From contig CALGJU010000127.1 in the NCBI GenBank assembly GCA_937928685.1, positions 1-38,959 of the forward strand: 38,959 nt of DNA, read 5' to 3'. This document shows positions 30,143 through 35,159 of this stretch, one piece after another. The position numbers and the translations under genes were made by a program. The stretch is from an uncultured Granulosicoccaceae bacterium. Lineage in GTDB: Bacteria; Pseudomonadota; Gammaproteobacteria; Granulosicoccales; Granulosicoccaceae. Below the pieces are notes generated by a model. That model searched no databases. It saw nothing but the letters and a program-made list of their open reading frames with translations, and had not been told where the DNA came from. Every line of letters starts with the position of its first letter. Within the stretch, counting starts at the first letter, position 1.

Positions 30143-30445
30143 ATGCCATGTATGCTTGTTTTAAATCAGTCTTAGTCGTTGCACACAGCTACTGTATATT
30201 GTGTATGTCTGGTAAGGTCACACCCTGTAGATAAGTTGTGAAAAAGTCTGGAATAAAAACCTAACAACTTTTTGGTGAATAATTGAACCCAAGTTATCCA
30301 CAGCTTAATGAATGGCATTCAAGCACAAAAAAATAGCATTAAGTAGTTGAATTATAAAGAATAAAAATAGTTATATACAGAATTATCCTGCTTAGTAGTT
30401 ATAGCAAGGTAACCCAGGTAAACAAACACAATACTTATATACGCC
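30143..30445. other. dnaA-dnaN intergenic region, best oriC candidate
   Basis: This 303-bp spacer has no gene. It holds a perfect DnaA box TTATCCACA (30294-30302) and four sites that differ at one position from TTATNCACA or its complement: TGTAGATAA (30226-30234), TGTGAAAAA (30237-30245), GGTGAATAA (30274-30282) and TTATATACA (30371-30379). The 80 bp at 30301-30380 contain only 20 G or C, so they could act as an unwinding element. The order (boxes, then AT-rich tract) fits a bacterial origin. dnaN promoter elements probably share this segment. Confidence 0.55.
30294..30302 (+). promoter_or_regulatory. DnaA box, perfect consensus
   Basis: TTATCCACA lies immediately before the AT-rich tract in the dnaA-dnaN spacer. 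With the four near-consensus sites around it, this is the strongest DnaA-binding cluster visible in the window. Confidence 0.65.
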
Positions 30446-31546
30446 ATGAAATTCGCAATTTCCAAACTCGAATTGTTCACTCCACTGCAACAAGTTGTAG
30501 GTGTAGTAGAACGAAAACAAACCCACGAAGTGATGAACAATCTTTTGTTTGTTGCCACAGAAGATAGTCTGCAAATCACCGGTACAGACAACGAAGTGGA
30601 ACTTAAAACCACAATCCCGCTAATTGTCACGGAACCTGGTCGATCAACCATCCCGGCACGCAAGTTATTTGATATCTGTCGTTCACTTGATGACAACGCC
30701 AGGCTCGATTTTGAAGTCGATACAGAAAAAGCCAAAGTTAAAACAGGGAAAAGCCGATTTACCTTAGCTACCCTGCCCGTTGATGAATTTCCGTTAGTAG
30801 ATGAGCTTATTGACGCCACAGCAATATCGCTTCCACAGAAACAACTCGATCTAGCAATCAAACGCACTTCGTTCGCAATGGCACAGCAAGATGTTCGTTA
30901 TTATCTGAACGGATTGTTGTTGCAAATAGGTGAAAATGAATTGTGTTGCGTGAGCACAGACGGACACAGGCTGGCACTGCACAGAACTGCAGTCGACATT
31001 AATGTGACGGAAGCGATTTCAGCCATTATTCCGAGAAAGGCAATAAGCGAGCTATCCCGTTTAATGGATGACACAGATACAGATATCACCTTGAACCTGA
31101 CCGGTAATCACCTGCAGGTTAAACTTGGTGCGCTTCAGCTAACCACAAAGCTTATTGATGGCAAGTTCCCTGACTATGAAAAAGTTATTCCATTAGCAAG
31201 TACCAACATAGCCATAGTTGATAGAGATCTGTTAAAACAGGCATTAAGGCGCAGTGCCATCCTCGCAAATGAGACTTACAAGGGCGTGCGTTTGACTCTT
31301 GCTAAAGATCAGTTAGGTATTCAGACCAATAATCCTAAGCATGAAGAAGCGGAAGATGAATTGCAGATAGACTATGACGGAGAACCTATAGAAATAGGCT
31401 TTAACGTCGTTTACCTGTTAGACGTGCTGAATGCGATTGATTCTGAAACTGCAGAACTTAACGTTAGTGATAACACCAGTAGCATGGTGATTCATCCGAG
31501 TGATGATAAACAGAGCACATACGTAGTTATGCCAATGAGGCTCTAG
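30446..31546 (+). CDS. dnaN: DNA polymerase III beta subunit (sliding clamp)
   Basis: This 366-residue protein forms the dimeric ring that holds polymerase III on DNA. The start MKFAISKLELFTPLQQVVGVVERK is typical, and the three repeated clamp domains are visible in succession (about 1-120, 128-245, 246-366), including YYLNGLLLQI with VSTDGHRLAL (near 152-180) and the C-terminal VVMPMRL, which closes the hydrophobic peptide-binding pocket. Length equals that of E. coli DnaN (366). It lies between the origin candidate and recF. Confidence 0.98.
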   Translation: MKFAISKLELFTPLQQVVGVVERKQTHEVMNNLLFVATEDSLQITGTDNEVELKTTIPLIVTEPGRSTIPARKLFDICRSLDDNARLDFEVDTEKAKVKTGKSRFTLATLPVDEFPLVDELIDATAISLPQKQLDLAIKRTSFAMAQQDVRYYLNGLLLQIGENELCCVSTDGHRLALHRTAVDINVTEAISAIIPRKAISELSRLMDDTDTDITLNLTGNHLQVKLGALQLTTKLIDGKFPDYEKVIPLASTNIAIVDRDLLKQALRRSAILANETYKGVRLTLAKDQLGIQTNNPKHEEAEDELQIDYDGEPIEIGFNVVYLLDVLNAIDSETAELNVSDNTSSMVIHPSDDKQSTYVVMPMRL

Positions 31547-31600: not shown

Positions 31601-32683
31601 ATGCATCTGACCCGCCTAGATGTTATGGGGGTTCGAAATCTAGCTTCTGTTCATATTGAACCAGGTGAAGGTATCAACTACTTTTATGGCGAAAATGGAG
31701 CTGGTAAAACCAGCCTATTAGAAGCTATATCATTATTGTCAGTAGGACGAAGCTTTCGTTCCGGAAAAATCACCACAATAATATCCGAAGATAATAACGA
31801 ACTGACCGTGAGTGGATCTGTTTCTGATCGTTTACGGGAAACCAGCAGTTCTGTTGGAATTAGCCGTGGAAAGGACTCAACAATTGCGCGAATTGATGGA
31901 CAAAATATTAATCGTTTGTCTGCGCTGGCCGTTGCTGTACCTAGTGTAGCGATCTCTGCAAAGAATCATGAGCTGGTTGAGGGAGGTCCTGGAGAGAGGA
32001 GAAATTTTCTCGATTGGATACTGTTTCACGTGGAGCACACTTTTGTACATTTATCGAAACGTTACAAAACTGCACTATCCCAAAGGAATGCTGCACTTCG
32101 TTCTAATGCTTCGGACGAATTGGTTTCATTGTGGAATGTGGAACTTTCGGAATCAGGTGAATCGATAGCACAATGCAGAAGATTGGTTTGCGATCAGGTC
32201 CAACAACGATTGGCAAAATTTGCAGAACAGATGGACAACAAAGCCATCTTGCCCCAGTTGCAGTATCGCCAAGGTTGGGCCGAAGGAAATTCACTGAACG
32301 AGACTCTCGAAAGATCATTAGATAACTGTCGCCGATTAGGTACCACATCAACGGGACCTCATAGAGCTGACATCAAATTGAAAGTTGGCAGCAACGAAGC
32401 TCGATATGTTCATTCACGCGGGCAGCAAAAACTGTTGGCAGTTTTGTTGAAACTTGTTCAAGTGGATTTGTACACAGAACATCATCAACAGGCACCCATT
32501 TTATTGTTTGATGATCTACCGTCAGAACTTGATGAGAATGCACGTGACTTCGTGTTTTCGTACCTGGAGACATGTTCCGTACAAGTGTTTTTGACCGGTG
32601 TAGAAGATATTTCAAAAACGATACAAGGTGTAAATAAAACGTTTCACGTGAAACAAGGCAAATTCGAAAACGTGGTATACTAA
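31601..32683 (+). CDS. recF: DNA replication/repair protein RecF
   Basis: This 360-residue SMC-like ATPase helps load RecA at gaps with RecO and RecR. Walker A is GENGAGKTSLLEAI near 30-43, the ABC signature is SRGQQKLLAV near 271-280, and Walker B with D-loop is ILLFDDLPSELDE near 303-316. The N-terminal LTRLDVMGVRNLASV is as expected. Two ParB-site-like sequences are embedded in the reading frame, one near the middle and one at the 3' end, where they encode LFHVEH and TFHVKQ. It starts 54 bp after dnaN and ends 37 bp before gyrB. Confidence 0.97.
   Translation: MHLTRLDVMGVRNLASVHIEPGEGINYFYGENGAGKTSLLEAISLLSVGRSFRSGKITTIISEDNNELTVSGSVSDRLRETSSSVGISRGKDSTIARIDGQNINRLSALAVAVPSVAISAKNHELVEGGPGERRNFLDWILFHVEHTFVHLSKRYKTALSQRNAALRSNASDELVSLWNVELSESGESIAQCRRLVCDQVQQRLAKFAEQMDNKAILPQLQYRQGWAEGNSLNETLERSLDNCRRLGTTSTGPHRADIKLKVGSNEARYVHSRGQQKLLAVLLKLVQVDLYTEHHQQAPILLFDDLPSELDENARDFVFSYLETCSVQVFLTGVEDISKTIQGVNKTFHVKQGKFENVVY
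32022..32037 (+). promoter_or_regulatory. parS-like site within recF (site 1)
   Basis: TGTTTCACGTGGAGCA matches the degenerate ParB-site consensus TGTTNCACGTGNAACA at all defined positions except one (G for A at position 14). It keeps the CACGTG centre and a perfect left arm. Confidence 0.6.
32640..32655 (+). promoter_or_regulatory. parS site within the recF 3' end (site 2)
   Basis: CGTTTCACGTGAAACA matches the classical parS TGTTTCACGTGAAACA at 15 of 16 positions; the inner 14 bp GTTTCACGTGAAAC form a perfect palindrome. Chance occurrence of such a 14-mer in 39 kb is very unlikely, and the location about 2.3 kb from the origin candidate is where ParB sites are expected. Confidence 0.85.

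Positions 32684-32711: not shown

Positions 32712-35159
<2,448 letters not shown>

Follow-up and report, generated by a model that had tools for sequence, protein, structure and literature searches.

In Pseudomonas aeruginosa, two centromere sites of the chromosomal ParABS system, parS1 and parS2, both lie within recF (PMC5521831, PMC3909081, PMC4368675). They belong to the class with the highest ParB affinity, and any single oriC-proximal site is enough for segregation (PMC5521831, PMC4368675). parS1 carries a deviation of the outer-base type, and ParB binds it almost as strongly as it does a perfect sequence (PMC4368675). The reading frame across these sites was inferred here from published silent mutations, so that the comparison rests on the papers: F-H-V-E is the sole frame in which the mutations TaTTtCAtGTaGAgCC and TGTTtCAtGTaGAgCA stay silent (PMC4368675). 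A parS pair in recF is therefore an already known arrangement. In total, P. aeruginosa possesses 10 parS sites, among them the intergenic parS3 and parS4, and its parAB lies ~7 kb from oriC. In canonical ParABS systems (Spo0J/ParB-parS, TGTTNCACGTGNAACA), the sites are spread across the ori domain.

Here, we analysed a window of 38,959 nucleotides, the entire contig C127 of a metagenome-assembled genome (MAG) in 332 contigs that is 77% complete and whose nearest named relatives are uncultured Granulosicoccaceae MAGs. The original prediction placed two parS sites within recF, and both 16-mers were indeed found at these coordinates on the + strand, each a near-palindrome with one mismatch to TGTTNCACGTGNAACA (Table 1). 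The description of one as a 15-of-16 match and the other as a one-mismatch site is right in its counts for both, but the two are not equivalent, as the mismatch falls on the tolerant outermost base in site 2 and inside an arm in site 1. Site 2 retains the exact 14-bp core GTTTCACGTGAAAC, with T1 to C as its sole deviation, and changes at the outermost base (position 1 or 16) are common among sites. Within RecF, site 2 is read as (x)CG TTT CAC GTG AAA CA (TFHVKQ, x = a) and site 1 as (x)TG TTT CAC GTG GAG CA (LFHVEH), in identical phase.

Table 1. Features of the recF locus and origin region in the window.
Feature	Position	Strand	Remarks
dnaA	28739..30142	+	TIGR00362 567 bits
candidate oriC, dnaA/dnaN gap	30143..30445	.	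position inferred from gene order and DnaA boxes
dnaN	30446..31546	+	TIGR00663 349 bits
recF, host CDS of both sites	31601..32683	+	TIGR00611 337.5 bits, cut-off 172
parS-like site 1	32022..32037	+	TGTTTCACGTGGAGCA; half-site GTTTCAC kept on the left; A14 to G in the right arm
parS site 2, recF C-terminal codons	32640..32655	+	CGTTTCACGTGAAACA; orthologous codons are parS in most parB-positive Gammaproteobacteria
gyrB	32721..35159	+	NF011501 1312 bits, TIGR01059 1012 bits

The candidate origin contains DnaA boxes at 30226-30234 (-) and 30294-30302 (+). Since it sits between dnaA and dnaN, the proposed distances of ~1.7 and ~2.3 kb between the origin and the two sites stand, and both 16-mers lie in the ori domain, as expected of chromosomal parS. 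As in P. aeruginosa, the pair is located in recF just clockwise of oriC and in the F-H-V-E frame; in P. aeruginosa, site 1 is followed by P and the TG (as in ATG) at site 2 is unchanged, as in many relatives. In contrast to P. aeruginosa, site 1 is degenerate here, parAB is found on a separate contig and no other convincing site was found.

Cognate parA and parB, which the original prediction had found missing from the window and proposed to look for, are both present in the genome, on contig C53, in an operon of canonical order (gidA-gidB-parA-parB-atpI-atpB-atpE, the atp names being read from translations). The ParB encoded there scores 191 bits against TIGR00180 (cut-off 58.45). It falls below the cut-off of the Noc model TIGR04285 (223 versus 315), and the sites match parS rather than NBS. 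The SR...GH recognition region of this protein is, by our residue assignments, presumably ParB-like rather than Noc-like. The system thus resembles canonical ParABS in its oriC-near parS, the parS-type HTH of ParB and the gid-par order, while it differs in that all detected sites are intragenic and in one gene only. In the two same-genus relatives examined (G005 and G009), parB lies ~12 kb from recF. With the gid-par block on another contig here (C53, L016), the separation of parAB and oriC in this genome is attributed to either a rearrangement or an assembly join. Positions 1-24350 of the window contain mnmE without gidA-gidB-parA-parB after it, unlike in these two relatives.

A search of the whole genome with 0-1 mismatch gave three matches, where chance would yield ~0.006 per window and ~0.7 per genome: both recF sites, plus TGTACCACGTGCAACA on another contig (C287:11354). 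The latter was rejected as a third genomic parS, as it lies in a long unrelated ORF reading as a glycogen-phosphorylase-like protein and is probably due to chance. With up to 2 mismatches, no enrichment was seen genome-wide (14 matches versus 24 for the reversed pattern), and it is therefore the clustering and conservation of the sites that count. No further convincing parS was found in this MAG, although more could be missing, since it is only 77% complete. Across 36 same-family and same-genus genomes, all matches to GTTYCACRTGRAAC (exact core) lie in recF or within ~3 kb of it, with none further away.

To place the two sites in a wider context, recF from the window and 186 further Gammaproteobacteria (187 in all) was aligned on the basis of the protein. 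Both sites occupy orthologous codons that are parS in most genomes, and in most parB-carrying genomes the same codons encode xFHV[EK]x at both sites; together with the published silent mutations, this identifies the pair as being of the P. aeruginosa type. At least one of the two sites was found within 1 mismatch in 148 of 164 parB-positive genomes, and both in 94 of 164. Among 15 parB-lacking genomes, which belong to 9 families with several in one order, three have one site within 1 mismatch and none has both. The association between parB and a recF site is strong (Fisher p ~7e-9, kinship ignored). A parS core lies somewhere in recF in 162 of 172 genomes, a count that includes untested genomes.

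Eight genomes without recF sites were examined for parS elsewhere. In two (G315 and G337), perfect parS lies some 4-18 kb from recF on its own contig, and in two others (G086 and G168) perfect sites lie at greater distance. Another (G097) possesses two one-mismatch sites on a different contig, while G032 and G208 show one weak match apiece. The eighth, G204, has no parS within 1 mismatch anywhere in the genome. Its ParB is divergent, as are those of G082 and G292 (E about 1e-34 to 1e-36), the search for parS covering G204 among these three. Combined, the divergent ParB and the missing parS suggest that G204 uses a different centromere. Conversely, parB was undetected in three genomes (G151, G284 and G319), yet these carry parS or near-parS at recF site 2 (L095, L097 and L181, respectively), which may reflect recent parB loss, a missed parB or an assembly gap.

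The original prediction also expected synonymous conservation over the two 16-mers, and across the class this conservation is the strongest in recF by both codon bias and tree-based counts. Ranks 1-7 of codon bias among 188 conserved degenerate recF columns are all taken by parS-specified codons, six of them the GTG, CAC and GAA of the two sites and one the GTG that precedes site 1. For the tree-based counts, the site columns were left out when the RecF tree was built, and parsimony was used to count synonymous changes on it. At the sites, the codons for H, V and E show only 3-9 changes per column (119-155 taxa; 0.02-0.06 per taxon), compared with tens of changes per column elsewhere in recF (median per taxon of 0.26 for two-fold and 0.48 for four-fold positions). 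The Phe wobble base, which is N in parS, underwent 46 and 50 changes at the two sites, which is ordinary. Set against the frozen H, V and E codons, it serves as an internal control that behaves as a ParB site predicts. Both sites are conserved as DNA beyond coding need. When only the family was considered (32 recF), the trend had the same direction but was weaker, with the V and H codons of the sites ranking 1, 4, 5 and 10 of 248; the bias of the site 1 GAA was not significant in this test because the family varies at that codon.

As the best explanation, we regard it as very probable that both 16-mers are parS, centromere sites for chromosomal ParABS that are written into the recF frame ~2 kb from oriC, with ParB binding and segregation themselves extrapolated from P. 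aeruginosa. Could they instead be by-products of a conserved FHVE motif in RecF and ordinary codon use, with no role for ParB? Even in the parB-lacking genomes, F and H of site 1 are kept in 13 and 12 of 15, respectively, so that part of site 1 does rest on protein constraint. In contrast, V of site 1 is found in 131 of 171 other genomes and is absent in the 15, E of site 1 drops from 132/171 to 4/15, and H of site 2 from 148/171 to 5/15. The DNA site therefore leans partly on the protein motif and partly shapes it. The idea that the DNA signal constrains codon choice is borne out by the frozen wobble bases, and the constraint extends to some amino acids (V and E of site 1, H of site 2). Intact sites are mostly gone where parB is absent, the most conserved wobble bases in recF are those of the two sites, apart from the one falling on the N of parS, and the same sequence was gained at a third, non-homologous recF position in a sister genus, all of which renders the protein-motif explanation scarcely credible. 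As an origin of the sites, chance or a pure protein motif was ruled out by the codon and phylogeny tests. It is likewise very improbable that the main role of the sites is to let spreading ParB repress the dnaA-dnaN-recF-gyrB operon rather than to mark the centromere. An excess of ParB in P. aeruginosa does reduce expression near parS1-4, for which interference via the recF sites was suggested, but at native ParB levels mutation of parB or parS causes no derepression of the neighbours of the intragenic parS1 and parS2 (PMC5521831), and loss of all four ori-proximal sites impairs segregation (PMC4368675).

A narrower version of the ParABS reading, compatible with it, holds that site 2 alone is functional here, with site 1 a remnant in decay or at most a half-site; we rate this slightly better than an even bet. 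A14 is present in 128 of 136 site-1 sequences, and its replacement by G, which disrupts the right arm, was one of the changes by which parS1 and parS2 were inactivated in P. aeruginosa (PMC4368675 Table 1). The change is rare elsewhere and common in this genus, in which several genomes have G, C or T at this position. In every same-genus genome with a recovered recF, the gene retains one or more intact 14-bp cores. On the other hand, the left half-site of site 1 is intact, P. aeruginosa ParB binds the half-parS GTTTCAC (PMC10419367), and good binding is possible at one-mismatch sites. Judged from its sequence, site 1 is probably a weakened parS or half-site owing to the A14 to G substitution, and it may no longer be bound by ParB, while site 2 is likely the main ParB loading site in this genome.

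In the preferred ParABS reading, the steps of which follow established ParABS biology, ParB from the gid-par operon would load on parS, close on CTP and slide over the flanking dnaN-recF-gyrB DNA, and ParA would then draw the duplicated origins apart. The stretch (x)TG TTY CAC GTG RAA CA would double as the F-H-V-[E/K] codons of RecF and as the ParB-binding palindrome, and this dual use would let selection fix the wobble bases and some residues. What this work establishes is the sequence of the sites, the presence of parAB, the class-wide conservation, the synonymous constraint and the decay in parB-lacking lineages. It provides a clean, quantifiable case of a chromosome-segregation signal sharing its letters with a protein-coding gene, in which the free Phe wobble base is an in-gene control and the parB-loss lineages are a natural experiment. 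It also calls for caution, as selection on DNA rather than protein may account for part of the FHVE motifs in RecF. In uncultured genomes, parS sites and their turnover can be read from recF alone.

Three details appear to be new: dual coding across the class, an additional recF parS gained in a sister genus, and a parS variant with a CACATG core. Our literature search, outside the scope of which lay the main parS survey (Livny 2007), returned no paper on the first two. The third in-frame parS, at window RecF residue 215, occurs in 11 genomes of the sister genus g4 (L060, G016:C14:147794; L063, G029:C23:44794; and 9 others). Its position is homologous to neither site 1 nor site 2, but it shares the FHV[EK] frame, reading mostly xFHV[EK]L, with FHM in two g4 genomes, compared with, for instance, FTVEL in near relatives. 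Site 2 is gone in most g4 genomes with the third site. It seems rather probable that recF is a standing centromere gene across Gammaproteobacteria, in which parS, in frame at two ancestral positions, sets codons and some RecF residues and erodes once parB has been lost, with a replacement arising nearby; the sister genus would have gained the site at residue 215, usually lost site 2 and drifted to a CACATG core.

CACATG replaces the CACGTG core in the recF sites of G020, G028, G034, G035, G031 and G059, giving FHM in RecF or CAT for His, and in some genomes affects both recF sites. With FHM, it is found at sites 1 or 2 in several g4 genomes and in the unrelated G059, and it recurs in unrelated families. 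A change in the ParB recognition helix was rejected as its general cause, as no residue divides the two groups. In G016 and G029, no new repeated palindrome acting as parS was found; CGTTCCACATGGAACT is located in recF. The ParB proteins of these two genomes (L226 and L227, respectively) read GNARALL instead of GHARALL in the recognition region (His to Asn). In both, sites 1 and 2 of recF are missing and the third site, of CACATG type, is the only one left, which suggests that ParB and parS co-evolved there.
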